This document shows positions 1,067 through 46,133 of a DNA stretch of 47,155 nucleotides, one piece after another. Positions within the stretch are counted from its first letter, which is position 1; every line of letters begins with the position of its first letter. The notes below the pieces were generated by a model. The model made no database searches, was not told where the DNA came from, and worked only from the letters and a program-made list of their open reading frames with translations. Position numbers and translations under genes: made by a program. This stretch comes from a virus. Location: positions 1-47,155 of the IMG/VR virus record IMGVR_UViG_3300036766_000934. The stretch is one strand, 5' to 3'.

Positions 1067-1082
1067 TATGTGAGAGTGTCCG
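1067..1082 (+). promoter_or_regulatory. Degenerate copy of the dispersed GTCTRA-N3-TGTG motif
   Basis: The text ATGTGAGAGTGTCC matches the second half of the genome-wide motif (TGAGAGTGT) but not the leading GTC. It lies in the divergent region between the leftward Prim-Pol gene and the rightward replication operon. The same region carries TTGTCAAACGG twice (989-999 and 1051-1061), the first copy overlapping the TTG start of the Prim-Pol gene. Promoters for both directions are expected here, but I see no convincing complete -35/-10 pair. Confidence 0.35.
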
Positions 1083-1118
1083 AAAAGCAGAACGACTGCA
1101 ACGCGGGCGTCTTACTTT

Positions 1119-1328
1119 GTGGGAACGGGAGTGACTGAATACCACATCGGCCAGCGGGTTCGTTTCGCTCCCGGCGCGTACGTTTCCGCCAGGCTGATCG
1201 ACCGGCCGGCGCGGGTTGAGAGATACGAAGAGGTCGACGAAGTCGACTATGTGATCGTGACTGTCGACGGCGTCGAACAGTGGGTGTTGCCGGGAGAAAT
1301 TCTTCCGCTGAAAAAGGAGACCGCATGA
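1119..1328 (+). CDS. Small acidic hypothetical protein, first gene of the rightward operon
   Basis: A 69-residue protein without a recognised family. It is rich in valine and acidic residues (RYEEVDEVDYVIVTVDGVEQ) and looks like a small beta-rich fold. A GTG start at 1119 gives MGTGVTEYHIGQRV; a second in-frame GTG at 1131 sits closer to the purine-rich GGGAACGGGA, so the start is uncertain by four codons. Its stop overlaps the ATG of the resolvase gene as ATGA, indicating translational coupling. It opens the long replication operon. Confidence 0.6.
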   Translation: MGTGVTEYHIGQRVRFAPGAYVSARLIDRPARVERYEEVDEVDYVIVTVDGVEQWVLPGEILPLKKETA

Positions 1329-1807
1329 AAATTCTCGCTCTCGATCTTGGCACCACCACCGGTTTTGCTTTGTCATTGTCGGGGGGCGATATCGTCTCCG
1401 GTGTCTGGAAGCTGAAAGGCGGGCGATTCGAGGGTGGCGGGATGCGTTATCTCCGCTTCCGTGGACATCTGGACGACGTCGATGCGCGCCACATTTTTTC
1501 TGATCGGGTTTACTTCGAGGCAGTTCGCCGGCACATCGGCACCGATGCCGCTCACGTTTACGGCGGACTAATGGCGACGCTGACCGCATGGTGTGAAGAG
1601 AATGCGATTCCCTACGAGGGCGTGCCGGTCGGGACCATCAAGAAATACATCACCGGTAAGGGCAACGCCGGCAAGGATTTGGTGACGGCCGCGGTGTCGG
1701 CGCTCGGCTATAAACCCGTTGACGATAATGAGGCTGATGCGATCGCGCTGTTATTGCTCAAACGGTCTGAAATGGAGATCGAGGAGCCGAAGCCTTGGAT
1801 GAGCTGA
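1325..1807 (+). CDS. RuvC-like Holliday junction resolvase
   Basis: 160 residues with the RNase H-like layout of RuvC: the first beta strand ILALDLGTTTG carries D7, RVYFEAV carries E65, and the C-terminal DDNEADAIALLL supplies D133/D134 and D138. These acidic positions are the usual metal-binding set for cutting four-way DNA junctions, so it probably resolves branched phage DNA in replication, recombination or before packaging. The ATG at 1325 follows AAAAAGGAG with good spacing; an upstream in-frame extension to 1280 lies inside the preceding gene and is less likely. The C-terminus overlaps the next gene. Confidence 0.85.
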   Translation: MKILALDLGTTTGFALSLSGGDIVSGVWKLKGGRFEGGGMRYLRFRGHLDDVDARHIFSDRVYFEAVRRHIGTDAAHVYGGLMATLTAWCEENAIPYEGVPVGTIKKYITGKGNAGKDLVTAAVSALGYKPVDDNEADAIALLLLKRSEMEIEEPKPWMS

Positions 1808-2490
1808 TGGAACGGCTGTATGAACACGCCAGAAATCGCGCCGCAACTCTTTCGGATGAGAAGGATGCCGAACTTTTGGCACACGATGCGCGAGCATTCG
1901 CCGAAGCCGCCCTCGCCGCCATCCGGCAACCGCCGAAGTTGGAGACGACGGCGGAGGAACGTGAACGCGTCGCTGCTTGGGCTGGCGATGTATCGTGGTT
2001 TCCGAATGCCGAGGTGCGCGCGCTTCTCCGCGACGTCGCCAAGCTCATCGCTCACGTCACCGGGCTTCTCTCCGCAACGAAGGAAGAAGCCCTAGCCCTG
2101 CTCGACGCCGAGGCAACACCCGTCAACTATCCGAAGCCGTTATTTTCATCGGAGGACAGGGACAGGGAGTCGCCGGGAACGGACTCCGCCTCTAACGCTG
2201 CCCCTCTACAATCTGGCCCGGCAACCTCCGGCCAAGAGCGCATCGTGCGCGCGGCTGTTATGGTCGGTGAAGCCGTTTACTCGGTGGCTCCGCCGGGTCG
2301 GCATGGTGCGGTCTTTCAGATCCTGCCGCCGACAAGCGACGATAAACTTGAGGATCAAGGCTTCTTGACAAGTACCGGTCGCTTCGTCACCCGCTCCGAG
2401 GCTCTGCGCATCGCAACCACGGCCGGTCAGATCATCCATCAATCGAGCGGGCCAAATCCAACCGAACTGTTCACGGAGGACATGTGGTGA
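1795..2490 (+). CDS. Phage protein with a C-terminal GRFVTRSEA-type module
   Basis: About 231 residues. The N-terminal 100 are helical and alanine/glutamate-rich; residues 110-150 are probably disordered; the C-terminal 80 contain HGAVFQILPP and GFLTSTGRFVTRSEALRIA, a small module I recall as recurrent in phage proteins of unknown function. The start is TTG 1795 (GAGGAG eight bases upstream) or ATG 1807, which overlaps the resolvase stop. It lies between the resolvase and the helicase, so a role in replication is only inferred from position. Confidence 0.65.
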   Translation: MDELMERLYEHARNRAATLSDEKDAELLAHDARAFAEAALAAIRQPPKLETTAEERERVAAWAGDVSWFPNAEVRALLRDVAKLIAHVTGLLSATKEEALALLDAEATPVNYPKPLFSSEDRDRESPGTDSASNAAPLQSGPATSGQERIVRAAVMVGEAVYSVAPPGRHGAVFQILPPTSDDKLEDQGFLTSTGRFVTRSEALRIATTAGQIIHQSSGPNPTELFTEDMW

Positions 2491-2509
2491 GCGACGACGG
2501 GCGGGTGAG

Positions 2510-3835
2510 TTGAACCTTTTTCCTTACCAAGTTGAGGGCGCCCGCTTCCTCGCCGAGAAGAAGCGTGCGTTGCTTGCCGACGACATGGGTTTGGGAAAGA
2601 CCGCCCAGGCGATCGCGGCGTGTGATTTAGTCGACGCCGGCATGTTTAACGTTCTGGTCGTATGCCCCGCTTCTGTTCGAGAAACTTGGCATCGAGAGTT
2701 TCGGCGTTTTGCCGGTGACAAATACCAAGCGGTCGTACTGTCCTATGACCGGATTGCGAAAGGCACATACAAGAGCAGTGTGCCAGTGCACATTGATGTC
2801 CTGATTCTGGATGAGGCCCACTACCTGAAGTCCCGCACCGCCAAGCGCACCAAAGCAATCTTTGGTCCCAAATGCGACGGCGTTGGGGGACTGGTTGAAC
2901 GGGCAAAGCACGTCTTTCTTCTCACCGGCACGCCGACGCCCAACAACCCATCGGAACTGTGGCCGATGCTGCGCGCCGTGATGCCGGACGCAATCGGGCC
3001 AGAGGGAATGAGCGCAAGAGGCGGCTGGCCAGGGACGGAAACAACTGTCTCTGTCGCCTGCGGCAAGCCCTTCTCCTACTGGCAGTACATCAACAGGTAC
3101 TGTTATCTCCGCGACAATGGTTTCGGCACCGAAATCGTTAAGGGTCGGAACCTCGACGAGCTCCGCGCGCGAATTGCGCCATACGTTCTGCGGCGCAAGA
3201 AGGCTGACGTGATGAAAGACCTTCCGCCGATTCGGTTCGACCAGATTTACCTTGAAGGCGATTTGACGCTGCCGGTCGAAGTGTTGGCGGAGGTTGAGAA
3301 CGTCGAGTGGGCGCTGGCGAACGGGGGCATCAAGGCACTGGCGAAGCTGGCGCCACACGTCGCGACGCTTCGGCGGTTGACGGGGTTGGCAAAGGTCAAG
3401 CCCGCGGTTGAATGGATCCGCGACTGGCTTGAGGCGGGCGGAAAGAAGCTGGTCGTGTTCGCGCACCACCGCAAGGTGATCGAAGGCTTGGCTGTTGGTT
3501 TGGCCCAAAACTTGTGCTGCGTGACCGGGGCAACGCCCGCGGATGAGCGACAGGACATCGTTAATCTGTTTCAATCGCGTTATGGACCTAGGATTTTCAT
3601 CGGTCAAATTCAGGCCGCCGGCGTCGGGATTACCCTTCACGCCGCGTCTGATGTATTATTTGTCGAATCTTCATGGGTGCCGGCGGACAACGAGCAGGCC
3701 GCCATGCGGATCCACCGCATTGGGCAAAAGAACGCCTGTCTGGTGCGTTTCGCAACGCTTGCTGGTTCGATTGACGAACGCATCCAGCGCGCGGTAATGC
3801 GTAAGACCGCCGACGTCGCCAAACTGTTCAACTGA
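2510..3835 (+). CDS. SNF2-family DEAH helicase/ATPase
   Basis: 441 residues with the superfamily 2 SWI2/SNF2 motif series: Walker A in DDMGLGKTAQA (K30), Walker B DEAH at 101-104, motif III LLTGTP at 138-142, and C-terminal motifs AGVGITLHAAS and QAAMRIHRIGQ. Such short SNF2 proteins are common in phage replication modules that also carry DUF2800, DUF2815 and a family A polymerase, as here, and act as DNA translocases. The apparent start is TTG at 2510, giving MNLFPYQVEG, which fits the family's usual N-terminus (PYQ.EG). The upstream gap is only 19 bases. Confidence 0.9.
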   Translation: MNLFPYQVEGARFLAEKKRALLADDMGLGKTAQAIAACDLVDAGMFNVLVVCPASVRETWHREFRRFAGDKYQAVVLSYDRIAKGTYKSSVPVHIDVLILDEAHYLKSRTAKRTKAIFGPKCDGVGGLVERAKHVFLLTGTPTPNNPSELWPMLRAVMPDAIGPEGMSARGGWPGTETTVSVACGKPFSYWQYINRYCYLRDNGFGTEIVKGRNLDELRARIAPYVLRRKKADVMKDLPPIRFDQIYLEGDLTLPVEVLAEVENVEWALANGGIKALAKLAPHVATLRRLTGLAKVKPAVEWIRDWLEAGGKKLVVFAHHRKVIEGLAVGLAQNLCCVTGATPADERQDIVNLFQSRYGPRIFIGQIQAAGVGITLHAASDVLFVESSWVPADNEQAAMRIHRIGQKNACLVRFATLAGSIDERIQRAVMRKTADVAKLFN

Positions 3836-3849
3836 GAGGACCAAGGAAA

Positions 3850-6314: not shown

Positions 6315-6516
6315 AGAACAACCCGCCGTCCCACCCATCGCCCTTCAGCTCGGCGCCGACCGTCAGAACGGTGTCGTTGTCCTGAAAATGGGTGGTTTCG
6401 TCCAGACCGTTAACTCCGCTACGGCGCGGGCGTACGCGATCGGTCTGATCCACGCCGCCGAGATTGCCGGGTTGCCGAAGATCGAGGAGGACGAAAAGAT
6501 TGGCTTGACCGAATAG
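6307..6516 (+). CDS. Small hypothetical protein between DUF2800 and DUF2815
   Basis: 69 residues from ATG 6307, preceded by GAGGAG and overlapping the DUF2800 stop. The middle reads QNGVVVLKMGGFVQTVNSATARAYAIGLIHAAEIAG, a beta hairpin followed by a helix, which I do not recognise as a named family. The stop at 6514-6516 abuts an exact copy of the dispersed motif, so this may be the last gene before a regulatory checkpoint in the operon. Confidence 0.6.
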   Translation: MPEEQPAVPPIALQLGADRQNGVVVLKMGGFVQTVNSATARAYAIGLIHAAEIAGLPKIEEDEKIGLTE

Positions 6517-6531
6517 TCTGATTGTGTGCTA
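6515..6531 (+). promoter_or_regulatory. Exact copy of GTCTRA-N3-TGTGC
   Basis: AGTCTGATTGTGTGCTA follows the stop of the small gene and precedes the DUF2815 gene by about 50 bases, in the only sizeable gap of the replication operon. A TTGACC at 6505-6510 could be a -35 with TAAACA (6530-6535) as a weak -10, 19 bases apart. It could therefore be an internal promoter, an operator, or both. Confidence 0.55.
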
Positions 6532-6583: not shown

Positions 6584-7174
6584 GTGAAAGACAACGTCGC
6601 ATACATTCACGAGAAAACCGGGAACCTGATGACGCCGAAGTGCCGCATGGCGTGGTCGTCGCTTTTGGCCCCGTCCAGAATGAAGAATGACGACGGTGAA
6701 GCGAAGCACGACGTCACCATTCTCATTCCCAAGGACGCTGACATTACCGTGCTCAAGAAGGCGGCCACGGAGGCTGCCGAGGAGAAGTTTGGCGTCAAAG
6801 CGAAGACTTTAACCCTTCGTTCGCCATTCCGCAAAACCGAGGGGAAGGACAGTCTCGCCGATCTCGCCGAGGACTTCCCCTTCTACATCACGGCGCGCAG
6901 CAAGGACCGGCCCGGCGTGGTTGGCCCAAACGGCAAGGCGGTCGACGATCCCGAGCAAATTTATCCCGGCCGATGGGTGCGGGCATCGATCCAGGCATTC
7001 GGCTACGACACCAAGGGCAACAAAGGCGTCTCGTTCGGACTACAGAACGTGCAGTTGCTCGACCATGACGACCCGCTCGCCATCGGCGGCAGTCGCGTTT
7101 CCGCGGAGGCCGAATTCGACGCCGTCGAAGGCGCCGGCGACGAGACCAAGTCGTCCGACGCGCTGTTCGAGTAG
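6584..7174 (+). CDS. DUF2815 family, probable single-stranded DNA-binding protein
   Basis: 196 residues from GTG 6584. The sequence follows the DUF2815 pattern: a conserved start with TPKCRMAWSSLLAP, a charged centre with KHDVTILIPKDAD, then QIYPGRWVRASIQAFGYD and KGVSFGLQNVQLLDHDDPL, and an acidic tail ending DALFE. The acidic C-terminus is what single-strand binding proteins use to recruit partners. DUF2815 is usually found with DUF2800 and a family A polymerase, exactly as here, and is regarded as the module's single-strand binding protein. It has its own leader with a motif copy and a hairpin, suggesting separate regulation. Confidence 0.8.
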   Translation: MKDNVAYIHEKTGNLMTPKCRMAWSSLLAPSRMKNDDGEAKHDVTILIPKDADITVLKKAATEAAEEKFGVKAKTLTLRSPFRKTEGKDSLADLAEDFPFYITARSKDRPGVVGPNGKAVDDPEQIYPGRWVRASIQAFGYDTKGNKGVSFGLQNVQLLDHDDPLAIGGSRVSAEAEFDAVEGAGDETKSSDALFE

Positions 7175-8171: not shown

Positions 8172-9298
8172 ATTGGTACAACGAAAATGGCCCATACGCC
8201 GCCGCCTGGCTTCGCAACCTCATCGTCGCTGGACACATCGCGCCGGGCGACGTTGACGAGCGGAGCATCGTTGACGTGCGATCCGACGATCTCGCCGGAT
8301 ATGTCCAATGCCATTTCTTCGCCGGCATCGGCGGCTGGTCCCACGCCCTTCGTCTCGCCGGATGGCCCGACGACAGACCTGTTTGGACAGGCAGTTGTCC
8401 TTGCCAGCCGTTCTCGACGGCGGGCAAGCAGAAAGGCTTCGCCGACGAACGGCACCTCTGGCCTGAATTCAGGCGACTTATCGCCGAGCGGTTGCCTTCA
8501 GTCGTCTTTGGAGAACAGGTTGCGAGCGCGATTGACTGGCTCCGACTTGTGCGAAGTGATCTGGAAGCCTTGGGCTACGCCGTGGGGGCAATGCCTATCG
8601 AAGCCGCGAGCGCGGGTGCGGACCATCTCAGAGACCGGTTCTGGTTTGTGGCCGACCGCAAGGGCGAACAAGTGGGGACCGCCGGACAGTCACGGCAACG
8701 TGGCGATGTGGGCGACGATCCGGACGAGCGACGGGGAGAAGGGCGGCCCGAACATGGCGTTCGGAGCTGGCGGGACGCCTCTACCTGCACAAGCCGCGCA
8801 ATCCCGGATGGCCGCGACTTGGCCAAGTCCCGGCTCGCAAATCAGCGGGGACACGACGGAGGTCCACGAAGCGAGGCAGTTGCGAGTTGTGGCGAAACAC
8901 GGGCGGCGAATGGGGACGCCTCTGACGGTCCACGCCCAAGTAGCGGCGGCGACATGGCCAACCCCGAAAGCACAACGGCCCGAACAGGAAACGACCTTTT
9001 CGCGCGGCAACCCGACGCTTGGTCTGGCCGCAACATGGGGGACGCCGCGTGTGGGGAACGGCGGGAACGGGAATGCGGATCGGGCGGCGAACGGCCGCTC
9101 ACGGCCAGAGGACCAAGCGCGGATTATCACTGGGTCGCCGGTGCTGACGGAAAGGCGCGGCGCGTTAAACCCGGAATTCGTTTGTTGGCTCATGATGTTC
9201 CCGCCCGAGTGGCTAAGTTGCGCGCCTTTGGCAACGCCATCGTCCCGCAGGTTGCCGCCGAGTTCATCGTCGCCTATCTGGATGGATTGAATGTCTGA
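8168..9298 (+). CDS. C5-cytosine DNA methyltransferase
   Basis: 376 residues from TTG 8168. C5 methyltransferase motifs are clear: motif I HFFAGIGGWSHAL (F51-G56), motif IV GSCPCQPFS with catalytic C79, a GEQV (115-118) in place of the usual ENV, motif VIII-like RDRFWFVA, and motif X-like RAFGNAIVPQVAAEF. It methylates cytosine in host or phage DNA, a usual phage defence against restriction. Residues 160-330, where the target-recognition domain should be, are unusually low in hydrophobics and rich in Arg/Gly/Asp. The same bases also code for a second open frame, 8187-9290. The motifs make this frame certainly real. Confidence 0.9.
   Translation: MNWYNENGPYAAAWLRNLIVAGHIAPGDVDERSIVDVRSDDLAGYVQCHFFAGIGGWSHALRLAGWPDDRPVWTGSCPCQPFSTAGKQKGFADERHLWPEFRRLIAERLPSVVFGEQVASAIDWLRLVRSDLEALGYAVGAMPIEAASAGADHLRDRFWFVADRKGEQVGTAGQSRQRGDVGDDPDERRGEGRPEHGVRSWRDASTCTSRAIPDGRDLAKSRLANQRGHDGGPRSEAVASCGETRAANGDASDGPRPSSGGDMANPESTTARTGNDLFARQPDAWSGRNMGDAACGERRERECGSGGERPLTARGPSADYHWVAGADGKARRVKPGIRLLAHDVPARVAKLRAFGNAIVPQVAAEFIVAYLDGLNV
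8187..9290 (+). CDS. Candidate overprinted protein in the +1 frame of the C5 methyltransferase
   Basis: A 367-residue frame, ATG 8187, uninterrupted across almost the whole methyltransferase gene in another frame of the same strand. It has its own organisation: a Ser/Thr/Arg-rich start, an ordered part with SGCLQSSLENRLRARL and VIWKPWATPWGQCLSK, repeated Trp-Pro elements (LWPTARANKWG, TWPSPG, TWPTPK, TWGTPR) and a C-terminal LNPEFVCWLMMFPPEWLSC. From memory the WPTP repeats and LNP..WLMGYPPEW ending recur in phage and prophage proteins annotated as hypothetical or methylase-associated. No convincing ribosome site precedes the ATG. It could instead be a by-product of GC-rich codon bias. Confidence 0.4.
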   Translation: MAHTPPPGFATSSSLDTSRRATLTSGASLTCDPTISPDMSNAISSPASAAGPTPFVSPDGPTTDLFGQAVVLASRSRRRASRKASPTNGTSGLNSGDLSPSGCLQSSLENRLRARLTGSDLCEVIWKPWATPWGQCLSKPRARVRTISETGSGLWPTARANKWGPPDSHGNVAMWATIRTSDGEKGGPNMAFGAGGTPLPAQAAQSRMAATWPSPGSQISGDTTEVHEARQLRVVAKHGRRMGTPLTVHAQVAAATWPTPKAQRPEQETTFSRGNPTLGLAATWGTPRVGNGGNGNADRAANGRSRPEDQARIITGSPVLTERRGALNPEFVCWLMMFPPEWLSCAPLATPSSRRLPPSSSSPIWMD

Positions 9299-9626: not shown

Positions 9627-10030
9627 AAATCTACCTCGCCGGCCCCATGCGGGGCATCCCCGAATTCAACTTCCCCGCCTTCCACGAAGTCGCGGCGCTG
9701 CTGCGTCGGGGTGGACACGATGTTTTCAGCCCGGCGGAGCGCGACATCATCCGCCACAGTGGCGTCGACATCTCCAAGGGCAACGTCACCGGCAACGAAG
9801 CGGAGGCGTCTGACAAACACGGCTTCAACATTCGCGAAGCTTTTGCCGAGGACGCCGAGTTCATATGTCGGCACGCCGAAGTCATCGCTCTGTTACCTGG
9901 TTGGGAGACCAGCAGGGGCGCCAAAGCCGAGCTCGCGCTTTCCCAGGCGCTCGGGCATGAGGTGTGGCTGCTCACCATAACCCTCTACGGGTGGGTCGTT
10001 CATCCGCCGGACTTCGTGGGGTCGGCGTGA
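9623..10030 (+). CDS. DUF4406 / nucleoside 2-deoxyribosyltransferase-like protein
   Basis: 135 residues from ATG 9623, overlapping the previous stop as ATGA. It begins MKIYLAGPMRGIPEFNFPAF, the standard opening of DUF4406 and related nucleoside deoxyribosyltransferase-like Rossmann proteins, and contains DAEFICRHAEVIALLPGWE followed by SRGAKAELALSQALG, matching the 'SRGA.AE...A...G' signature that carries the catalytic Glu in the family. It could act on deoxynucleoside monophosphates. An upstream extension to 9560 lies in the previous gene and is rejected. Confidence 0.75.
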   Translation: MKIYLAGPMRGIPEFNFPAFHEVAALLRRGGHDVFSPAERDIIRHSGVDISKGNVTGNEAEASDKHGFNIREAFAEDAEFICRHAEVIALLPGWETSRGAKAELALSQALGHEVWLLTITLYGWVVHPPDFVGSA

Positions 10031-11349
10031 GCATAGAGATTCTGCAAGGAGACTGTCGCGAGGTTCTGGCGGGGATGCCGGCGGACAGCGTCGATGCTGT
10101 CGTGACCGATCCGCCGTATCACCTGCTTTCTACGGTCAAGCGATTTGCCGCGACCGCGATGGACGACGATACGCAAACCAGTCAACGCGGACGCGACGGC
10201 GCGGATGGATATGCGCGCCTGTCTCGCGGCTTCATGGGGAAGATGTGGGACGGCGGCGATGTGGCGTTTCGGCCCGAGACGTGGGCTGTGGTTATGCGTG
10301 TGCTCAAGCCGGGCGGCCACATACTCGCGTTCGGGGCGCCGAAAAACGTTCATCGGCTGACGTGCGCGATCGAGGACGCCGGCTTCGAAATCCGCAATTG
10401 CGTGATGTGGCTGTTCGGGAGCGGATTTCCGAAATCGCATAACGTCGCCAACTCTATCGACAAGAAATTGGGACAACCGGATCGCGGGCACCGCATCGCG
10501 ACTGCCAGTCGTTACCATCCTGACGGTACTCTTGAGCCGAATGGCGAGGCGTTTCCCGCATACGAGGCCCGGACAGATGCAGGCAAGCCTTGGGGGGGTT
10601 GGGGCACCGCCCTCAAGCCCGCCTATGAGCCGATCATCCTCGCCCGCAAGCCGTTGATCGGAACCGTCGCAGAGAACGTTCTGGCGCATGGCACCGGGGC
10701 GCTGAATATTGACGGGTGCCGAGTTGCGACAAACGGGCCTTCTCCGACGGCGGCGCGTCGCGCCAGCGCGCGTCAGAACGATTGGGACGCGACGGCAAAT
10801 GGGATGAAGGCGGCGGAGTCCGACGCGAAGGGTCGCATCCAACGCAGAGGCAATCCCGAGACGTTCAAGCAAGAGCGACCCTCGGAACAACTCGGCCGCT
10901 GGCCCGCCAACGTGCTTCACGACGGCAGCGAGGAAGTGCTGGCGGCGTTTCCTGACGCGCCCGGTCAGCAGCGTAAGGTCGGTCCCGAGCATGGCGACAA
11001 GGATAGCGTTAATACATACGGCGACTACGGCCCGCGGCAAGCTTTTGAACCAAGAAACGATTCCGGTTCCGCCGCTCGCTTTTTCTACTGCGCTAAAGCT
11101 GGCAAGAAAGATCGCAACGGGTCCAAACACCCGACCGTCAAGCCGATCGCGCTGATGCGCTACCTTTGCCGCCTCGTCACGCCGCCGGGCGGCACGATCC
11201 TCGACCCGTTCGCCGGCACCGGGACGACCGGTCAGGCCGCGCTCGAGGAAGGCTTCAACGCCGTCCTGATCGAGAAAGAGGATGAGTACGTCGCGGACAT
11301 TCGTCGGCGCTTCAACACAGAGGCGCCGGCTCTGGCGAGGTTCGATTGA
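10027..11349 (+). CDS. Amino (N4/N6) DNA methyltransferase, DPPY type
   Basis: 440 residues from GTG 10027 (GTGA overlap with the previous stop). The catalytic motif DPPY lies at 28-31 and the SAM-binding DPFAGTGTTG at about 393-402; catalytic-before-SAM order is that of beta-group amino-methyltransferases. The middle carries GGHILAFGAPKNVHRL and KPAYEPIILARKPL, typical of phage and prophage enzymes of this type. Residues 230-330 form a charged insertion that probably contains target recognition. The product is N6-methyladenine or N4-methylcytosine; the sequence alone does not decide. The 3' end overlaps the Dam remnant. Confidence 0.88.
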   Translation: MSIEILQGDCREVLAGMPADSVDAVVTDPPYHLLSTVKRFAATAMDDDTQTSQRGRDGADGYARLSRGFMGKMWDGGDVAFRPETWAVVMRVLKPGGHILAFGAPKNVHRLTCAIEDAGFEIRNCVMWLFGSGFPKSHNVANSIDKKLGQPDRGHRIATASRYHPDGTLEPNGEAFPAYEARTDAGKPWGGWGTALKPAYEPIILARKPLIGTVAENVLAHGTGALNIDGCRVATNGPSPTAARRASARQNDWDATANGMKAAESDAKGRIQRRGNPETFKQERPSEQLGRWPANVLHDGSEEVLAAFPDAPGQQRKVGPEHGDKDSVNTYGDYGPRQAFEPRNDSGSAARFFYCAKAGKKDRNGSKHPTVKPIALMRYLCRLVTPPGGTILDPFAGTGTTGQAALEEGFNAVLIEKEDEYVADIRRRFNTEAPALARFD

Positions 11350-11483: not shown

Positions 11484-13483
11484 CCACCCTCATGATCGAC
11501 TTCGAATCCCGCTCTACCGTCGACCTCAGCAAGACCGGCGTCTATCCCTACGCGGAGAATCCAGACACCGATGTCTGGTGCGCCGCGTGGGCGATCGACA
11601 ACGAAGCGGTCCAGCTCTGGATCCCCGGCGAGCCATGCCCGTCACGCCTTGTTGAACATGTCGCCGAGTGTGGCTTGCTCGCCGCCTGGAACGCTAATTT
11701 CGAAATCGCCCTGTGGAAGCACATCCTGCACCCGCGCTACGGCTGGCCGTTGCCGGACCTCTCTCAGTGGCGTTGTAGCATGGTCATGGCTTACGCTATG
11801 TCCCTCCCCGGTGCGCTTGAGAACGCCGCCGGCGCAGTCGGCCTCGACATCGGCAAGGATATGACCGGCCGTCGGCTGATGCTCGCGATGAGCCAGCCTC
11901 GGCGCCCGCGCAAGGACGAGCCGGATGGCCTTTACTGGTGGGATGACGAGGACCGAAGGTCACGGCTCTACGCCTACTGCAAGAACGACGTGGAAGTGGA
12001 GCGCGCCATCCGGTCCCAGCTGGTGGCGTTGCGGTCGTCCGAGCAAGCGCTTTGGCATCTCGACCAGAAGATCAATGGCCGTGGCGTCTACGTCGACAAG
12101 GTTCTCTGCCAGCGGGCCAAGGCGGTCGTGGCGCACGTCACCAAGCGGCTCAACGCCGATATGGCACGCGTCACCGATTACGCCGTCACCGCCTGCAGCA
12201 ACATCAACAACCTGAAAACGTTCGTGCGCTCCAAGGGCGTTGACACGGAAGCCTTGGACAAGGAGGCTCTTGCCGAACTGCTGAAGGGTCCGTTGCCGAC
12301 CGGCGTTCGTGAGGCGTTGGAACTTCGCCAGGAGGCCGGCAAAGCGTCGGTCGCCAAGATCGAAGCTTTACTTAACGGCACGTCGGCCGACGGCCGCGCC
12401 CGCGGGCTATTGCAGTTCCACGCCGCTAACACTGGTAGATGGGCCGGGCGTCGCTTTCAGCCGCAGAACATTCGTCGGCCGAGCGAAGAGACCGATGTCG
12501 ACGCGGCAATCGAGATCATTCTGTCGCAGCCGCCGGCGGAGGCGGCGGTGCTGCTGGAATGTCTCTATGGACCGCCGCTGACGATCGTGAGTGACTGTCT
12601 GCGAGGGATGATTAAGGCGTCGCCGGGGAGAAAGCTGGTGTCGGCCGACTTCTCCAATATCGAGGGGCGAGTACTGGCGTGGCTGGCCGGCGAGCGCGGC
12701 AAGCTCGACGCCTTCGAGGCGTACGACCGCGGCGAAGGACCGGACCTCTACAAGGTCATGGCCGGGTCGATCCTCAATAAGCAGCCGAACGACATCACCA
12801 AAGACGAGCGCCAGGCATACGGAAAGGTGCCGGAACTAGCGTGCGGGTATCAAGGCGGCGTCGGCGCCTTTCAGACTATGGCGCACACCTATGGAGTTAA
12901 GATCGAGGATGTGCGGGCCGAGCTGATCGTTCAGCGCTGGCGAGCAGCCAACCCGAACATCAAGCAATACTGGCGCGACCTTGAGGACGCTTGTTTCGGA
13001 GCCGTAACGAATCCCGGTTCGCTGCAAATCGTCCGTAACGTCAAGTTCAAGGTCGTCGGCTCCTTCCTGTGGATGCAACTGCCATCCGGTCGCGCCATCT
13101 GCTTCCCATACCCGGCGATCGTCTGGAAGGAGATGCCGTGGCTCAACGAAGATACCGGCATGCCAGCGCGACGCCAGGTGGTGTCGTTCAAGGGCGTTAA
13201 TTCGTACAGCCGCAAATGGGAGACACAATATCTCTACGGCGGGAAAGAAGCTGACTATGCCACGCAGGGCACTGCGCGCGATCTTCTGGCGGCGGCAATA
13301 GTGCGTGTCGAGGCGCACGGCTACCCTGTAATTCTTACGATTCACGATGACGCTTTGGCCGAGCCTAAGAAGGACTTCGGCAGCGCCGAGCAGTTCGAAG
13401 AACTCATGATTGAACTGCCGCCGTGGGCTGCCGGCCTGCCGGTGGCGGCCGAGGCGTGGGAAGGTGAGAGATACAGGAAATGA
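11480..13483 (+). CDS. polA: Family A DNA polymerase with 3'-5' exonuclease domain
   Basis: 667 residues from GTG 11480. The exonuclease domain shows Exo I MIDFES (D7, E9), Exo II-like WNANFEIALWK (N73, E75) and Exo III YCKNDVEVE (Y166, D170). The polymerase domain shows motif A VSADFSNIEGR (D390), motif B RQAYGKVPELACGYQGG (R444, K449, Y457) and motif C LTIHDDALAE (H622, D623, D624). Motif C has HDD where HDE is usual. No 5' nuclease domain is present. This is the replicative polymerase of DUF2800/DUF2815-type modules, presumably primed by the Prim-Pol protein. Confidence 0.93.
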   Translation: MTTLMIDFESRSTVDLSKTGVYPYAENPDTDVWCAAWAIDNEAVQLWIPGEPCPSRLVEHVAECGLLAAWNANFEIALWKHILHPRYGWPLPDLSQWRCSMVMAYAMSLPGALENAAGAVGLDIGKDMTGRRLMLAMSQPRRPRKDEPDGLYWWDDEDRRSRLYAYCKNDVEVERAIRSQLVALRSSEQALWHLDQKINGRGVYVDKVLCQRAKAVVAHVTKRLNADMARVTDYAVTACSNINNLKTFVRSKGVDTEALDKEALAELLKGPLPTGVREALELRQEAGKASVAKIEALLNGTSADGRARGLLQFHAANTGRWAGRRFQPQNIRRPSEETDVDAAIEIILSQPPAEAAVLLECLYGPPLTIVSDCLRGMIKASPGRKLVSADFSNIEGRVLAWLAGERGKLDAFEAYDRGEGPDLYKVMAGSILNKQPNDITKDERQAYGKVPELACGYQGGVGAFQTMAHTYGVKIEDVRAELIVQRWRAANPNIKQYWRDLEDACFGAVTNPGSLQIVRNVKFKVVGSFLWMQLPSGRAICFPYPAIVWKEMPWLNEDTGMPARRQVVSFKGVNSYSRKWETQYLYGGKEADYATQGTARDLLAAAIVRVEAHGYPVILTIHDDALAEPKKDFGSAEQFEELMIELPPWAAGLPVAAEAWEGERYRK

Positions 13484-14007
13484 GCCTCCGTTTCGCGCGT
13501 GTTTGGGCCATGCCGTCCTCGGAAACATTTAGCGTCAAGCCCATCCGTGAGCTTATCGAACGCTACATTTTTGAAGGCGAGTGGGTTGATCCATTTTGTC
13601 GGGACAGCATCTTCAAATCGCGCTGTCGTTACACAAACGATCTCAATCCGAAGTTTGCTGGCACCCACAACATTGACGCACTGGATTTTCTGAAATCTTT
13701 TGCGACGGAGAGTATCGACGGCATTTTGTTCGATCCGCCCTTCTCGCCCCGCCAGGTCAAGGAAGCCTATCAAGGCTTTGGTCCTGCCGACACTACGCGG
13801 CGGTTTTATAGCGATCGTAAATATGAAGCGGCGCGCATTCTGAAGCCTAATGGCGTCGCCATTGTGTGCGCGTGGAACTCGCTTGGTCTCGGTATCAAGA
13901 ACGGAATGCGGATGGAAGAAATTCTGCTCGTCAATCACGGCGATCAGAACGATACGATAGTCACCGTCGGAAGAAAGCAATCAATCTCTCAAGCGATGGC
14001 GGCGTGA
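13480..14007 (+). CDS. DPPF-type DNA adenine methyltransferase
   Basis: 175 residues; ATG 13480 overlaps the polymerase stop as ATGA. EWVDPFCRDS (D37) resembles a SAM-binding motif I, and ILFDPPFSPRQVKEAYQGFG carries the catalytic DPPF at 85-88. The wording DPP(Y/F)SPRQ..E.Y is one I associate with small phage adenine methyltransferase-like proteins found beside family A polymerases. The C-terminal part (GVAIVCAWNSLGLGIKNG) completes the fold. It is short for a methyltransferase and has little room for target recognition. Confidence 0.8.
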   Translation: MSLRFARVWAMPSSETFSVKPIRELIERYIFEGEWVDPFCRDSIFKSRCRYTNDLNPKFAGTHNIDALDFLKSFATESIDGILFDPPFSPRQVKEAYQGFGPADTTRRFYSDRKYEAARILKPNGVAIVCAWNSLGLGIKNGMRMEEILLVNHGDQNDTIVTVGRKQSISQAMAA

Positions 14008-14497: not shown

Positions 14498-14514
14498 TTC
14501 ACACTCTCAGACAC
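14498..14514 (-). promoter_or_regulatory. Exact copy of GTCTRA-N3-TGTG, left of attP
   Basis: On the minus strand, GTGTCTGAGAGTGTGAA. It touches the left end of the attachment core and points leftwards, opposite to the copy at 14600-14616 on the other side. Confidence 0.5.
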
Positions 14515-32825: not shown

Positions 32826-32861
32826 CAAACCGACGAAACTAAACGCCTCCGCCGCGCAAGA

Positions 32862-38517: not shown

Positions 38518-38799
38518 TCAGCTGTTTCCCCGCACCGCGTCGTACAACCGATCGAACTGCTTCATAATCCGTTCCTCCAAGTCCTTGATGACCGAGAAAG
38601 TCACGTATTCACGCGCAGCACGTTCCCTGAATTCGCTGATTTCGATGTGAGCGTCATCCGCCCGCTTCTTGGCTTCGTCCGCCATTACCGCGTTGGCTTT
38701 CGACCGGCCTTCGGCGCGCACCGCCCAGGCGACGATGCCAACGCCGGCGGAGAGAAAGGCAAGAATGACGTACGCGGCATTCCAGTCGACAGTCAACAT
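38518..38799 (-). CDS. Membrane-anchored coiled-coil protein
   Basis: 93 residues from ATG 38799, or 95 from GTG 38805. One membrane helix (AAYVILAFLSAGVGIVAWAV) is followed by a charged coiled coil (MADEAKKRADDAHIEISEFRERAA, LEERIMKQFDRLYDA). The plan resembles i-spanin or DUF1515-like phage membrane proteins. No ribosome site precedes either start; instead the dispersed motif ends two or three bases before the ATG. Confidence 0.55.
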   Translation of the reverse strand: MLTVDWNAAYVILAFLSAGVGIVAWAVRAEGRSKANAVMADEAKKRADDAHIEISEFRERAAREYVTFSVIKDLEERIMKQFDRLYDAVRGNS

Positions 38800-38800: not shown

Positions 38801-38816
38801 TGCACAACTTTAGACA
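38801..38816 (-). promoter_or_regulatory. Exact copy of GTCTRA-N3-TGTGC at the start of the packaging operon
   Basis: On the minus strand TGTCTAAAGTTGTGCA, immediately followed by AATG, the start of the membrane protein gene. The same arrangement recurs at 41840. Upstream TTGACC and TTGATC are possible -35 elements. A protein bound here would block the packaging/terminase operon. Confidence 0.55.
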
Positions 38817-38940
38817 GATCAAGTGGTTGAGGTCAAATCTCACACCCATTCTTCCTGACCGATGTGGTCGCTACCCGAATGAAATCTTGGCCGGAGGCAG
38901 AGGTTTTCATCGGCAGGACGCTCCAAAAAATACGTCCTAC

Positions 38941-39969: not shown

Positions 39970-40352
39970 CAGAGTCGCGCCTTCAACGCCGCGCGGAATT
40001 GAGCCGCCGTGATCGCGGCCTTGCCTTCCAGCGCCCGCAGCCGGTTTTCGTGATCGAACAAAACCTTGAAGGCAAGCACATCGAAGCGGTCGAGTGTGGA
40101 TTCCTTCTCGGCGTCGATACCGGCGGCCAGTTCGGGCGCCGTCTTGTCCCTCATCGTCCACACCCGCGTCACCCGCGCCGCCTCGACGGTGACGACCGGG
40201 CCAGTCTGGACTTGCGTCGCCGGATCGAACGGCGGGTTTGTTTCTTCGACGGGCAACCAGCGCCAACCGGGCTTGGTCTGCACGGTTGGATCGATATTCG
40301 ATGCGAAGCGGTCGATCACATCGACTGACGAGACGAGGGCGTGTTCAGTCAT
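39969..40352 (-). CDS. Tail fibre assembly/accessory protein
   Basis: 127 residues from ATG 40352. KPGWRWLPVEETNPPFDPATQ and VVTVEAARVTRVWTMRDKT are typical of small phage tail assembly proteins in the XkdW/DUF4376-like style, followed by a helical half (AELAAGIDAEKES, RLRALEGKAAITAAQF). It sits between the fibre and the lectin-domain protein with overlapping start/stop codons, suggesting a chaperone or connector. A longer frame to 40472 reads into the fibre gene and is rejected. Confidence 0.65.
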   Translation of the reverse strand: MTEHALVSSVDVIDRFASNIDPTVQTKPGWRWLPVEETNPPFDPATQVQTGPVVTVEAARVTRVWTMRDKTAPELAAGIDAEKESTLDRFDVLAFKVLFDHENRLRALEGKAAITAAQFRAALKARL

Positions 40353-41839
40353 CAGCTTGCGTCTTTCAAAGCCGTGGTAGTGAACAGCAGCTTGATCCCG
40401 TGCAGCCGGGCATCGACCGCCATCGTGTCTCCGGCATCCGCAACCGTTCGGTTCAACTGGAACATCACCCAATCGCCTGCGGCGGGAGTGCCGGCTATCG
40501 TAATCGCCGATGAGGTCGGGCCAACGTAAACGTCATCCGTGGTGCCGCCGGTATCGACGGAAGTCTGCGCCGTGCCGAACGCCACGTCACCGGCGTCGTC
40601 ATTGCTGCACGCCACTCCCGCCAGACCGAACGCCACGCCGAAATTCGTTGTCGTTGCCGGATGCGACCAAATCGGCGCGAAACTCACCGTGCCTTCGTCC
40701 CAACTCTCCGGGAACATGAAGGCGAACTGCACGAACTCCTGGGTCGTCGTGTCGAAATCTTTCGTGACGAACATATTCTTGTTCGACGACTTTTCGATTG
40801 ACCCGGCCGCCGCGCCGTTCGTCGTGCGCGACACCATCGCTCCGGCGGGGATGATGATGGTCTGCAGACCGTAAGGCGTGTTCCAGGCCGGATCATCCGC
40901 CCCCATCGTCAGGACTTGACCAGCGGTGCCCTTTGCCAGCCGATCCGGCACCGTCGCATTGCGGAAGATGATGTCGCCGCGCGTGGTGAGCAGACTTGCC
41001 GCAATCGCACCCGTCGCCGAGTAGAGCGTGTCGAAGTAGGCCTTGAGCGTCGCCTTGACGTTCGCCCAGGTGAGAACCTTGACGGCGAACGAAGCGACAC
41101 TGTCGAGCAGGCCGAATTCATCGGCATCAACCGGCGTCGTCTTGCCGGCAACCCCGTGAATCGACGAGGCAACATTCGTCGCGTCGGTCACATCCGCGGA
41201 AGCTTCGATGCCACCAAGTTTCGACCCCTGCGCCGTCGTGAATGCCGCCGTCGTATCGTCCAGAACAGTCGCGTGCGCCTGCACACTGCCGCCGATGTCC
41301 GCATCCTTGAGTATCGTCGCGTCAGCCGGCTCGTACACGCCGCTGTGATTGTGCGCCGCGTCCGCCGGCGCAAACCCCGCCGTCTTGACGTCGACGCCAC
41401 CAGTGCCGTCCCACACCACCGCGTGCCCGTCGGTGACGGCTGTCGCCGGCGAAACGACATTGCCGGCGCCAGCGCCATCCAAACCGGGCATACCCTGAAT
41501 ACCTTGAATGCCCTGAATGCCCTGCGGACCTTGCGCCCCCACGGCGCCAGCAGCACCAGTGGCGCCAGTAGCACCAGTGGCGCCAGTAGCACCAGCCGGA
41601 CCCGGCACGCCGAGCTCCGCAACCACATCCGGCGCGAGCTGATCCAGCCCGATGACCGCGTTCGCGATCAGGCCGTCGGCACGCGTGAACCGCTTCAGAA
41701 ACTCGACGATCTCGCCAACCGAAACCTCGACAAGATTGCCGTCCGCGTTAACCTTGTCGCCGGGCAGCGGGCGCGTCGGGTTGGCGTTCTGGTAGCTCTG
41801 GTAGTCGAACTGACGAGTGTATTTCGTCGGATAAGGCAT
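40352..41839 (-). CDS. Tail fibre 1 with collagen-like repeats
   Basis: 495 residues from ATG 41839. The first 75 residues (FDYQSYQNANPTRPLPGDKVNA, RADGLIANAVIGLDQL) are a T7 gp17-like attachment domain shared with the second fibre gene. Residues 77-127 are a collagen-like Gly-X-Y run (GPAGATGATGATGATG, GPQGIQGIQGIQG). The rest alternates helical shaft and beta domains, ending in a 150-residue beta-rich tip. It is the host receptor-binding fibre. It begins its own transcription unit, marked by a motif copy over the start. Confidence 0.85.
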   Translation of the reverse strand: MPYPTKYTRQFDYQSYQNANPTRPLPGDKVNADGNLVEVSVGEIVEFLKRFTRADGLIANAVIGLDQLAPDVVAELGVPGPAGATGATGATGATGAAGAVGAQGPQGIQGIQGIQGMPGLDGAGAGNVVSPATAVTDGHAVVWDGTGGVDVKTAGFAPADAAHNHSGVYEPADATILKDADIGGSVQAHATVLDDTTAAFTTAQGSKLGGIEASADVTDATNVASSIHGVAGKTTPVDADEFGLLDSVASFAVKVLTWANVKATLKAYFDTLYSATGAIAASLLTTRGDIIFRNATVPDRLAKGTAGQVLTMGADDPAWNTPYGLQTIIIPAGAMVSRTTNGAAAGSIEKSSNKNMFVTKDFDTTTQEFVQFAFMFPESWDEGTVSFAPIWSHPATTTNFGVAFGLAGVACSNDDAGDVAFGTAQTSVDTGGTTDDVYVGPTSSAITIAGTPAAGDWVMFQLNRTVADAGDTMAVDARLHGIKLLFTTTALKDAS

Positions 41840-41855
41840 TTCACAACTTTAGACA
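41840..41855 (-). promoter_or_regulatory. Exact copy of GTCTRA-N3-TGTG at the tail fibre 1 start
   Basis: On the minus strand TGTCTAAAGTTGTGAA followed directly by ATG of tail fibre 1. It shares 14 consecutive bases with the copy at 38801. No Shine-Dalgarno box is visible, so transcription and translation start here in an unusual way or use weak signals. Confidence 0.55.
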
Positions 41856-41882
41856 AACAAGGGACAAGGGGTCAAATTCCGG

Positions 41883-42298: not shown

Positions 42299-43101
42299 GC
42301 TCCGAGCCGGCCGCGCGTAGCGTTAAACAAATCCATCAACTGCGCGGCGGTCAATGCGACACCCTCCCACGCACACGCCACAGCCTCGCGCGATCCATTT
42401 GTGAAGGGCGGAGTTCCTACGCCATTATCGCCGGCGGCACCTAACTGAACAGGATAGCTGGCACTTCCTGAAGCGGGCGATGTGTAGGCTGCGGCTTTTC
42501 CTGTCTCTTGCACCGCGTTAATTTGCATAATTCCGCTATTGACACTGGCTTCGTCCAAAGAAACCGCGATGAAACTCCATGCATTGGTTGTAACCAATGC
42601 GGTGCTAATCATGCTTAACGCCGCTACTCCGCTGCCATTACACGCACTGAACAACAATCCGCCCGCCACTCTGACGGCAAAGTGAAATCCTGTGTTGCTG
42701 ACGCCGCCAGCACTGTCGCCAAAAACGATTTGAGAAACGCCAAGGGGCCAACGACCCCACGCAACTAACGTGAATTTGGCGCTGTCTTTGTGAATGTTCT
42801 GCATCCACGTTTCGTTGGCAGAATCGTAGGTGAAGAAATCCCCGCCATCGAAGTCCCAATACTCAGCCGACGACAACCCGCCGGCGGAACCGTTAAAAGT
42901 TGGGTCGCTGGCCTGCGCCGCAGATGTCGTGCCACGGTTGAAGTCGTAGCCGCTGCCAGAGAGGTCGAGCCACGATTGACCGCTCGAGTACGACGAAGCG
43001 TCGCCGGCATCGAGACAGAGTTTCAGACCGGATGTGAGGCTAAGAGCATTGATTGCACCAATCGCCCCGTAATTCAGCCCGCCCATGATGAGACCTGTCA
43101 T
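42295..43101 (-). CDS. Second tail adhesin with concanavalin-like domain
   Basis: 268 residues from ATG 43101, overlapping the fibre 2 stop. The protein has a lectin-like layout: GLKLCLDAGDASSYSSGQSW, LDLSGSGYDFNRGTTS, YWDFDGGDFFTYDSANETWM, FTLVAWGRWP, AWSFIAVSLDEASVNSG and an end motif AACAWEGVALTAAQLMDLF. These elements follow the LamG/concanavalin pattern of phage and bacterial surface proteins. It is functionally equivalent to the lectin protein at 39049 but clearly divergent. Confidence 0.72.
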   Translation of the reverse strand: MTGLIMGGLNYGAIGAINALSLTSGLKLCLDAGDASSYSSGQSWLDLSGSGYDFNRGTTSAAQASDPTFNGSAGGLSSAEYWDFDGGDFFTYDSANETWMQNIHKDSAKFTLVAWGRWPLGVSQIVFGDSAGGVSNTGFHFAVRVAGGLLFSACNGSGVAALSMISTALVTTNAWSFIAVSLDEASVNSGIMQINAVQETGKAAAYTSPASGSASYPVQLGAAGDNGVGTPPFTNGSREAVACAWEGVALTAAQLMDLFNATRGRLGA

Positions 43102-44246
43102 CAGATGAGCGTCCGCGTCCACTTGAGCGAGAACGAGAAGTCAACACACGACGCGTTGGCGCTGATTGTGACGACAATGTCATCGCCGGCAACAAAAACG
43201 TTGTTGGATGCTTGCGCCTGCGATTGCTCGGCGGACGAAACGGCGTTGGCGGCCCCGCCAAGAGCGGTCGTGTTGATCTTGAAAGTCGCGGTTGCGGTGC
43301 CGGAGACGCACTTGGTCGTCGCTTCGGTAATCATCCCGCCTTCGGTTGCCTTGAGAACCAGCGTGTAGCTACGATTGCTCAAGGATCCCAGGATGGCGCC
43401 GTAAAACGGCTCTGCGGTCTGTGAGCGTGCGGCAGCCGAGAGCGTCACGCGCTGCGCGGCGGCATCGGCGTCATCGAGAAGCGCCCTCCCCGCGGCCGTC
43501 AAAGCAATCTGCTCTGGCGCCCCACCAGCCACCGAACCAAGAAGTTTGTTCGCTGAAAGATTCTGAATCTTCGCCAGGGTAATAGCCGCATCCGGTATCT
43601 TTGCCGATGTGACGGCTTCGTCGGCGATCTTGGCGGACGAGACCGCGTTGGTCGCGATCTTGCCGGAGGTGACAGCCGCGGCGGCAATCTTGTCCTCGGT
43701 GACGGCGCCATCGGCGAGTTTTTCGCTCGTAACAGCGTTCGCGGCGAGCCTGGCGGAGTTGACGGCAAGAGTTGCTATCTTGGCGGCCGTGACGGCGCCG
43801 TCGGCCAGCTTCGGCGTCGTGACGTCGCCGTCGTTGAGCACCAGCGGGTCGAACGCGCCGAGGAAATCGGCGAGGAAAACCCACTGCCCGGCGGCCAGAT
43901 CGGTTGCGAAGTCAGCCCCGGAGGTGTGATCTTCCAACGCGCGGTAGAAATTGGCGCCGTTGAAGACGGTGTCGCCCATGAAATGCACAGTGGTTGCCGA
44001 CCACGCCGTCGGCGGGTTGATGCCGATCTCTAACGCGGCGGCGAGCTGATCCGGGCCTATGCTTGCGTTGGCGATGGCTCCGTCGGCGCGCTGGATGAGC
44101 GCGAGGTTTGCTAAAAGTTCATCTAAAGAAACTTTAATGGCGTTGAATTCGGCGTCGAGATCCGCGCCGGTGTACGGCTTCGCCGGGTTCGCCTGCGCGA
44201 TCAGCGTGAAGCTGTTCTGGCGGTCGTAGGGGGTGGGCTGCGGCAC
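43101..44246 (-). CDS. Tail fibre 2 with octapeptide-like repeats
   Basis: 381 residues from GTG 44246. The attachment domain (residues 1-72: ANPAKPYTGADLDAEFNAIKV, RADGAIANASIGPDQLAAAL) is paralogous to that of fibre 1. Residues 140-235 are repeats of about eight residues such as DGAVTAAKIATLAVNSARLA, forming a beta-helical shaft. The C-terminal 100 residues are a beta-rich tip (SYTLVLKATEGG, ATATFKINTTALGG). The start has no strong ribosome box. It heads the leftmost-reading transcript from the 44247-44596 gap. Confidence 0.8.
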   Translation of the reverse strand: MPQPTPYDRQNSFTLIAQANPAKPYTGADLDAEFNAIKVSLDELLANLALIQRADGAIANASIGPDQLAAALEIGINPPTAWSATTVHFMGDTVFNGANFYRALEDHTSGADFATDLAAGQWVFLADFLGAFDPLVLNDGDVTTPKLADGAVTAAKIATLAVNSARLAANAVTSEKLADGAVTEDKIAAAAVTSGKIATNAVSSAKIADEAVTSAKIPDAAITLAKIQNLSANKLLGSVAGGAPEQIALTAAGRALLDDADAAAQRVTLSAAARSQTAEPFYGAILGSLSNRSYTLVLKATEGGMITEATTKCVSGTATATFKINTTALGGAANAVSSAEQSQAQASNNVFVAGDDIVVTISANASCVDFSFSLKWTRTLI

Positions 44247-44596
44247 GGCTTCTTAGGAATCGATTGGCCAGCCGGCGGCGAAACGGCGGTGCGCGCGGTA
44301 GAAGGGCGCTCTGCCGGGCGTGCGTGCCGCCCAGCAGAGTCGCTTTTCGGCCTGCACACGCAGACCTCGTGGGCTAAGCCCGCGACCACACTAGCACGGC
44401 GTCTGATTTGTTGCCAAGTGAGCAGCGGCGGTGTAGGGTGAATCGTTCGTCGGGGCTTTTCTCCTTTCTCCCCGCGGACGGCCCCCGTGAGCGCGGTGTA
44501 CCTCCCCGTCCCAAGACGCTCCGGGGGCCACAATCCTCACGTCACGCGAAGGCCCGGTCGTTTCGGCGGCCGAGCCAATTTCTCAAACGAGGTACG
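44247..44596. other. 350-base structured intergenic region
   Basis: Divergent region between tail fibre 2 (leftward) and a methyltransferase (rightward); no protein frame here convinces me. It holds a long hairpin, CTCTGC-C-GGGCG-TGCGTGC-CGCCC-A-GCAGAG (44309-44339), a second one CGTGGGC-TAA-GCCCGCG near 44370, and a degenerate motif copy GTCTGATTTGTTGC at 44401-44414. It may hold a small RNA or nested promoters for both directions. Confidence 0.5.
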
Positions 44597-45803: not shown

Positions 45804-46001
45804 TTGGCTCAGCCCTTCCTTCACGTCATCATCGAAACCGAGCACTGTCTGCCGCTTGGTCGACCGCGAAAAGTCGAATCAGCCGGCACGATCGACCTGC
45901 TCAATCCCGCATACGGACTGGTCGACGTCGACGCTCGAGTACCAATCGAGCTCGCCAAGGCATTCCTGCGGATGCATCAGGCGTACAAATCAGCCCTCTA
46001 G
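45804..46001 (+). CDS. Small hypothetical protein divergent from terS
   Basis: 65 residues from TTG 45804, only two bases away from the terS start on the other strand. The peptide (PFLHVIIETEHCLPLGRPRK, VPIELAKAFLRMHQAYKSAL) looks like a mixed beta/alpha small protein. Its ribosome site would have to lie in terS; no clear one is visible. Supported by composition only. Confidence 0.4.
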   Translation: MAQPFLHVIIETEHCLPLGRPRKVESAGTIDLLNPAYGLVDVDARVPIELAKAFLRMHQAYKSAL

Positions 46002-46031
46002 GATACTGATCGGCGCCGGCAATCGCTGGCG

Positions 46032-46070
46032 TCGATCACGCTTTCGTGAACATCGATCACTTTTTCGTGA
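46032..46070. promoter_or_regulatory. Two tandem palindromic operators with 21-base period
   Basis: TCGATCACGCTTTCGTGA (46032-46049) and TCGATCACTTTTTCGTGA (46053-46070) match at 16 of 18 positions and start 21 bases apart, i.e. two helical turns. Each is an inverted repeat (TCAC-n6-GTGA). This is the arrangement of cooperative dimeric repressor sites, upstream of the rightward accessory operon. Confidence 0.7.
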
Positions 46071-46073
46071 TAT

Positions 46074-46089
46074 GCGCATAATCAGACAA
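46074..46089 (-). promoter_or_regulatory. Degenerate motif copy facing left
   Basis: On the minus strand TTGTCTGATTATGCGC, keeping GTCTGA and ending TGCGC instead of TGTGC. It lies directly after the tandem operators and points away from the accessory operon. Confidence 0.4.
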
Positions 46090-46096
46090 TATGTAC

Positions 46097-46133
46097 TTGT
46101 CGCCCGTCTGAGAGTGTGCATATTAACAGACGG
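46097..46133 (+). promoter_or_regulatory. Promoter of the accessory operon with an exact motif copy
   Basis: TTGTCG (46097-46102) and CATATT/ATATTA (46119-46125) form a -35/-10 pair with 16-17-base spacing. Between them lies an exact motif copy, CGTCTGAGAGTGTGCAT (46105-46121), so its occupancy would block RNA polymerase. CCGTCTG (46104-46110) and CAGACGG (46127-46133) also form an inverted repeat around the -10. Confidence 0.6.

Follow-up and report, generated by a model that had tools for sequence, protein, structure and literature searches.

Dispersed asymmetric operators served by a single repressor are already known from phage P1 and from the Cluster A actinobacteriophages, such as L5 and Bxb1. 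The P1 C1 repressor binds 22 asymmetric 17-bp operators across the phage genome, each of which acts locally (PMC8546580). Cluster A phages of the L5 type carry approximately 24–30 asymmetric sites, whose motif diverges along with a repressor made of a helix-turn-helix (HTH) and a C-terminal domain (PMC6550527, PMC9283540); these stoperators lie mostly away from promoters and are predominantly oriented one way (PMC6550527). Here we analyse a dispersed motif, GTCTRA-N3-TGTG, in a 47,155-bp virus record, IMGVR_UViG_3300036766_000934, taken at its full length (the window). The motif very probably represents a set of operators for the phage's own XRE repressor, encoded at 15988–16434, which would silence many promoters separately.

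In function, P1 C1 appears to be the closest parallel, since in both cases asymmetric operators stand at many separate promoters. The differences are that here the protein is a 148-residue XRE repressor, the phage is podovirus-like and integrates, and the operator core, TTGTC, often occurs head to tail. P1 C1 is larger and is not known to be XRE-like. Because the repressor here is a small XRE protein, we claim the likeness as functional only, not as one of descent. What the window's family shares with Cluster A is many dispersed asymmetric sites (11–23 per genome), a motif that diverges with the repressor and an HTH followed by a C-terminal part. Unlike Cluster A, however, it favours promoter regions and shows a weak orientation bias, and no Cluster A repressor with a Stoperator domain was among the matches listed against the PDB (60 by sequence, 50 by fold). 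The HTH fold itself is that of the 434- and P22-type XRE (HTH_3/HTH_31) repressors, with 434 and P22 C2 among the profile matches, and the 434 operator has a TTGT/ACAA-like half-site similar to the one seen here. Those repressors use few, palindromic operators in a single switch region, in contrast to the many asymmetric sites described below. Among open-licence papers we found no prior description of operators in this phage family, which includes Rhizobium phage RHph_N65, for which no paper was found, and Microcystis phage Mae-Yong1326-1, whose paper does not contain the word 'operator'.

A dispersed motif that changes from genome to genome

The initial annotation had reported seven exact copies of the motif in the window against a chance expectation of about 0.2. 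All seven are present, 1–2 bases to the right of where it had placed them, and dinucleotide shuffling puts the expectation at 0.13 (maximum of two in 100 shuffles). Read backward, the pattern has no match in the window. As it had been picked post hoc from the sequence, we repeated the search without a prior pattern: an exhaustive gapped-word search of the non-coding DNA of the window again ranked it first, as CACAnnnnnAGAC, the same motif on the other strand, with a score of 18.2 compared to a mean of 10.3 and a maximum of 15.1 in 300 Markov-2 shuffles of the same regions. Word searches were kept to non-coding DNA, genome-wide versions being swamped by codon-periodic words, and the per-genome searches rest on gene calls from a simple in-house model. 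The copies were also said to be mostly intergenic or at gene edges, and all seven exact ones are indeed either non-coding or no more than 20 bp from a gene edge (such DNA makes up 16% of the window); with strict boundaries, six of the seven are non-coding. Copies with one mismatch, including one at 1109, show a modest excess only (10 in all versus 3.3 by chance). The motif is asymmetric: its best correlation with its own reverse complement is 0.25, versus 0.82 for a palindromic control.

The weight-matrix scan proposed at the outset was run on the window and its relatives. A stricter matrix found 11 non-coding and two coding matches in the window, compared to approximately one in random sequence. 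The degenerate copies at 32806–32818 and 46075 scored as high as exact ones, and a looser matrix additionally picked up 16464, at the repressor promoter, and 44401, at a fibre operon. These four members of the degenerate set first listed are plausible; a fifth, at 1067, is weak. Some copies in the window begin with AGT or CGT, so a TGT-anchored seed yielded just six non-coding sites there and the stricter matrix was used instead. A further candidate, at 9299, overlaps the gene 9291 start codon (ATGTCTG); it was rejected as probably due to chance.

Searches with the capsid protein and the repressor revealed a large family that comprises the two annotated phages named above, whose repressors are homologous to that of the window (30–41% identity), and prophages in named alphaproteobacteria. 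By repressor alignment, the prophage hosts include Mycoplana azooxidifex (DSM 100211) and Chelatococcus caeni (DSM 103737), whose prophage stretches coincide with viral contigs G021 and G022. A capsid-protein search of bacterial genomes gave no match, megablast found no close DNA relatives of the window, and viral contigs searched with the integrase or with a single repressor sequence yielded one weak match or none. The Mae-Yong1326-1 record (OP028995.1, L077) has 71.8% GC and Microcystis aeruginosa as its recorded host. By capsid (40% identity) and repressor (approximately 30%) it groups with alphaproteobacterial prophages, so that the cyanobacterial host seems odd and may need to be rechecked.

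The literal motif is absent from the four closest relatives. At the same upstream places they carry a related but different signal: TTGTCGGGTTTGTCGG in G001, TTGTCTGGTTTAG in G002 and TTGTCGGGTTTAG in G003 and G004. The capsid operon promoter of G003 reads TTGACA-AT-TTGTCGGGTTTAGCGA-TATAGT, an arrangement in which the motif would occupy the spacer between −35 and −10. A de novo search of non-coding DNA identified one dispersed asymmetric motif per genome in approximately 20 related temperate podovirus-like phages, with scores of 17–42 in the relatives, whereas the highest score among 132 shuffles was 15.6. The sequences differ, but nearly all open with TGT (core TGT[CAT]). They start TGTCTGA in the window, TGTCGGG in G1, TGTCTGG in G2, TGTCCTT in G6, TGTnGAAAC in G7, TGTAG..AACTGAGAG in G9, G10 and G15 (a G9 site reads TGTAGNGAACTGAGAGA), TGTnGGATT in G18, TGTTGnnAGTTG in G22 and G23, TGTAGGT in RHph_N65 and G41, and TGTCCTG in Mae-Yong1326-1. 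The two annotated phages hold their own repeated words, TTGTAGGT and TTGTCCTG, respectively. In cross-scans the matrices were mostly genome-specific, with overlap among the closest genomes (G1, G2 and G4; G9, G10 and G15). None of the motifs is palindromic (best self reverse-complement correlations of 0.12–0.6, against the same control). Head-to-tail repeat sites occur in the window, G1, G14, G21, G33 and G45; across genomes a second TGT follows at +9 in 44 of 200 sites and at +10 in 23 of 200, over a background of about five, an excess partly built into the motif definitions.

Whether the boundaries are conserved in related phages had been named as one point on which the first reading would stand or fall. 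A literal search alone would suggest that they are not, given that the four closest relatives lack GTCTRA-N3-TGTG, but the genome-specific search reversed the outcome: the sequence is not kept, while the positions are, each marked by its own genome's motif. Across 11 relatives, co-occurrence of own sites upstream of orthologous genes was 70, compared to 18.7 ± 7.6 under random non-coding placement (p = 0.0005). A relative's own motif stands at the boundary of the capsid operon in 8 of 10 relatives, of fibre gene 43101 in 7 of 10, of the 23972 operon in 4 of 10, and of the single-strand-binding protein (SSB) gene in three of six testable close relatives; both testable relatives have it ahead of fibre gene 40352, and five of eight in the promoter region of the repressor itself. 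The window holds an exact or degenerate copy at all six of the leading conserved boundaries.

The motif also varies with the repressor. We aligned 40 repressors and described 36 genomes by the over-represented non-coding words that follow each of the 64 trinucleotides. TGT was the best of the 64 anchors, with a partial correlation with repressor identity, given terminase, of r = 0.405 (p = 0.0005); the converse, terminase given repressor, was 0.118. After near-duplicates and the DNA near the repressor gene were removed, TGT still came first (0.338, median anchor 0.08, p = 0.0005). Of 17 other gene families compared as predictors of motif words, among them integrase, polymerase, capsid and terminase, all but the scaffold gene did less well than the repressor.

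Two alternative binders can be weighed against this covariation. The copies at 14500 and 14601 point in opposite directions on either side of the attP core, as arm sites for integrase or excisionase might, with the other copies arising by chance or secondarily and being unrelated. Most copies, however, lie far from attP, and the motif tracks integrase less well than repressor (0.44 versus 0.56; integrase given repressor, 0.09), so that we find the arm-site explanation hard to credit. The other candidate is a host regulator; alphaproteobacterial LexA likewise uses direct repeats, which is a lead only. The motif differs sharply within one phage family at shared positions and follows the phage repressor, and we judge a host protein the least probable binder.

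Placement at promoters

Site density was highest in divergent intergenic regions (3.96 per kb), intermediate in tandem (2.05 per kb) and lowest in convergent ones (0.85 per kb). An exact TTGACA lies near 32 of 198 sites, compared to 9.8 expected, and at 17 sites TTGAC stands in a fixed register 9–10 bases ahead of TGT, including window positions 6505–6510 and 32823–32828; the latter is a −35 TTGACA beside the 32806–32818 site. Orientation is weakly biased, with 104 sites along and 77 against the downstream gene in 14 genomes.

These distributions bear on the suggestion in the initial annotation that the repressor works as in L5, a suggestion that the comparison divides in two. A dispersed operator of the XRE repressor fits the comparative data, as positions are kept and the motif changes with the repressor and not with the backbone. 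The stoperator analogy, under which the same sites would mainly block elongation instead of initiation, is not supported: sites favour promoter regions, a subset sits in register behind a −35 TTGAC, and orientation is only weakly biased, whereas Cluster A sites mainly face one way. The sites are nonetheless numerous and dispersed, and some are not evidently at promoters, namely the pair flanking attP, the inverted repeat at 14439–14458 (likewise in G001) and the 24808 copy, which runs against local transcription. Overall, we consider true stoperators unlikely, although sites beside attP and at the ends of operons, such as 14439–14458, may act as roadblocks.

The initial annotation had also offered a phage-specific promoter. 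Such a promoter or activator element would be recognised by an activator, sigma factor or RNA polymerase dedicated to it. The motif does lie upstream of operons, and the copies at 38803 and 41842 directly adjoin start codons, TTGACC preceding TCTAAA by 16 nt. However, it co-varies with the repressor and sits in ordinary-looking sigma-70-type promoters, in several genomes between the −35 and the presumed −10; it also occurs near repressor promoters and attP; and a scan of 40 window proteins turned up neither a sigma factor nor a phage RNA polymerase. For these reasons such an element seems very improbable. The two promoters, at 38803–38836 and 41842–41875, share a 39-bp block that includes the TTGACC and TCTAAA, and both motifs abut the start codon without a Shine-Dalgarno sequence between; the transcripts are possibly leaderless.

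Several observations weigh against dispersed operators of the XRE repressor. The 24808 copy is oriented opposite to local transcription, and the window's copy at the promoter of the repressor itself is degenerate. Approximately half of the distant relatives lack a clear above-null motif (G24, G35, G36, G44, G47, G49 and others), which may mean that the motif was truly lost, that non-coding DNA is short or that power was low; in several distant relatives Shine-Dalgarno and ATG words headed the list and were left out of the operator counts. Each per-genome matrix was fitted to the very sites that it scores. The 31717 scaffold gene ties with the repressor as a predictor (0.57 versus 0.56), and the covariation is correlational and probably owes part of its strength to shared ancestry.

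The window phage, its sites and its repressor

The window is the record of a temperate virus whose host is probably among the alphaproteobacteria. Its major capsid protein belongs to podovirus family NF033394 (271.9 bits; curated cut-off 80), and the proteins scanned include terminase, portal, helicase, A-type polymerase, exonuclease and SSB. On the minus strand, a lysogeny module runs from the XRE repressor through a xis-like gene and integrase to the attP core. The sites and module genes are listed below.

Candidate operator sites and lysogeny features of the window (feature, position, strand, context)
Exact motif GTCTGATTGTGTG	6516–6528	+	Ahead of SSB gene 6584–7174; −35-like TTGACC at 6505–6510, fixed −10 register
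Hairpin GGCGTTACGCGCC, then inverted repeat TTGTCTGAAAAGTCAGACAA	14422–14458		End of replication operon
Perfect inverted repeat TTGTCTGA-AAAG-TCAGACAA	14439–14458	.	Two half-sites head to head, end of replication operon
Exact motif GTCTGAGAGTGTG	14500–14512	−	Directly left of attP
attP core, like a tRNA 3′ end	14513–14565	.	88–91% identity to bacterial records
Exact motif GTCTGAGGGTGTG	14601–14613	+	Right of attP, orientation opposite to 14500 copy
Tyrosine integrase	14771–15832	−	Directly downstream, with the xis-like gene, of the XRE repressor
Excisionase-like MerR/HTH_17 protein	15806–15987	−	Directly downstream of the XRE repressor
XRE repressor, 148 residues	15988–16434	−	HTH_31 helix-turn-helix and conserved C-terminal strand-strand-helix without known family
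Degenerate motif TGTCTGATTTGTAG	16464–16484	−	Repressor gene promoter region; 20.8 bits with broad matrix, <13 bits with stricter
Degenerate direct repeat TTGTCTGG-TTTGTCTAA	24672–24690 (approximate)	+	Upstream of 23972–24577 operon
Exact motif GTCTAAACTTGTG	24808–24820	+	Upstream of 23972–24577 (−) operon
Degenerate motif GTATCTTTTTGTG	32806–32818	−	Upstream of scaffold/capsid operon 31717–32766 (−); 23 bits
Exact motif GTCTAAAGTTGTG	38803–38815	−	Directly upstream of gene 38518–38799; TTGACC 38831–38836; 27 bits
Exact motif GTCTAAAGTTGTG	41842–41854	−	Directly upstream of fibre gene 40352–41839; TTGACC 41870–41875
Degenerate motif GTCTGATTTGTTG	44401–44413	+	Upstream of fibre gene 43101–44246 (−)
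Near-exact motif GTCTGATTATGCG	46075–46087	−	Divergent junction of late (−) and early (+) genes; 24 bits
Exact motif GTCTGAGAGTGTG	46106–46118	+	Same late/early junction, between TTGTCG and CATATTAA

The tRNA-like core between the 14500 and 14601 copies agrees with the initial assignment of these copies as flanking attP, and the palindrome noted at 14440 is exact. The hairpin ahead of it recurs in relative G001, where it precedes an operator-like repeat of that genome's own, TTGTCCGGTTTGTCGG; relatives carry CGACAAACCCGACA at the boundary matching the direct repeat at 24672–24690. Beyond the 46106 motif, a small open reading frame with a Shine-Dalgarno sequence begins at 46155. An Rfam search of the window gave no match.

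Elsewhere in the window, the replication region holds three separate DNA methyltransferase-like genes (8187–9290, 9964–11349 and 13480–14007). A run of 18-nt repeats (29930–30178) lies within gene 29597–30643, which adjoins the capsid gene and weakly matches a tail protein family, and 15-nucleotide tandem repeats, as in pentapeptide-repeat proteins, extend from 46859 to 47143, up to the contig end.

The repressor scored 40.4 bits against HTH_31 (cut-off 27) and 37.7 against HTH_3 (cut-off 23), and its place directly upstream of the xis-like and integrase genes is also that of an XRE-family repressor in a lysogeny module. An AlphaFold2 model (mean predicted local distance difference test score 79, predicted template modelling score 0.53) has a confident HTH, a disordered linker at residues 100–110 and a C-terminal strand-strand-helix. 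In sequence-profile and fold comparisons with the PDB, only the HTH part matches solved structures (3vk0, C.BclI, 434 and P22 C2), and the C-terminal part has no Pfam match. That tail, VWLRVNQ.V....ALKI..LL (15994–16100, minus strand), is predicted to form the strand-strand-helix and is conserved in all 40 aligned repressors. Residues Q45, S46, R63, S67 and Y69, within the predicted HTH, are invariant in 62 homologues, consistent with the reading of an invariant TGT core.

A proposed immunity system

Under the mechanism that we propose, each copy would be an asymmetric site of approximately 14–17 bp, in which an XRE-type TTGTC half-site is joined by another contact approximately one helical turn downstream. 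In the window phage (TTGTCTRA-NN-TTGTG) this other contact would resemble a head-to-tail repeat in degenerate form. A dozen or so sites would be occupied by the repressor in the lysogen, around attP, at the repressor gene and at the SSB, capsid, fibre and early operon promoters. Initiation would be blocked promoter by promoter, without one master switch. Repressor and operators would then diverge jointly across the family and produce genome-specific immunity types. We infer direct binding, repression, the head-to-tail geometry and the immunity grouping from sequence comparison.

More tentatively, and with somewhat less than even confidence, we suggest that this is a widespread and hitherto undescribed immunity system of temperate podovirus-like phages. 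In it, an XRE repressor of approximately 150 residues would bind ten to twenty-odd dispersed sites, either head to tail or as a monomer with the C-terminal strand-strand-helix as a second reading head. The site sequence would diversify with the repressor, giving dozens of coexisting heteroimmune groups that share a backbone and keep their operators in the same places.

If the sites are indeed dispersed operators of the repressor, the design known from P1 and Cluster A arose here in another family of phages, one that includes prophages of Mycoplana and Chelatococcus, and on an XRE repressor of small size. Sites keep their positions but change in sequence along with the repressor, which would make the family a source of dozens of natural repressor-operator pairs. 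Two questions would then become testable: how a phage could preserve lysogeny as ten to twenty of its operators change in sequence, and how an asymmetric site could be recognised by an XRE protein. The operator sets would also predict mutual immunity among the phages of the family.

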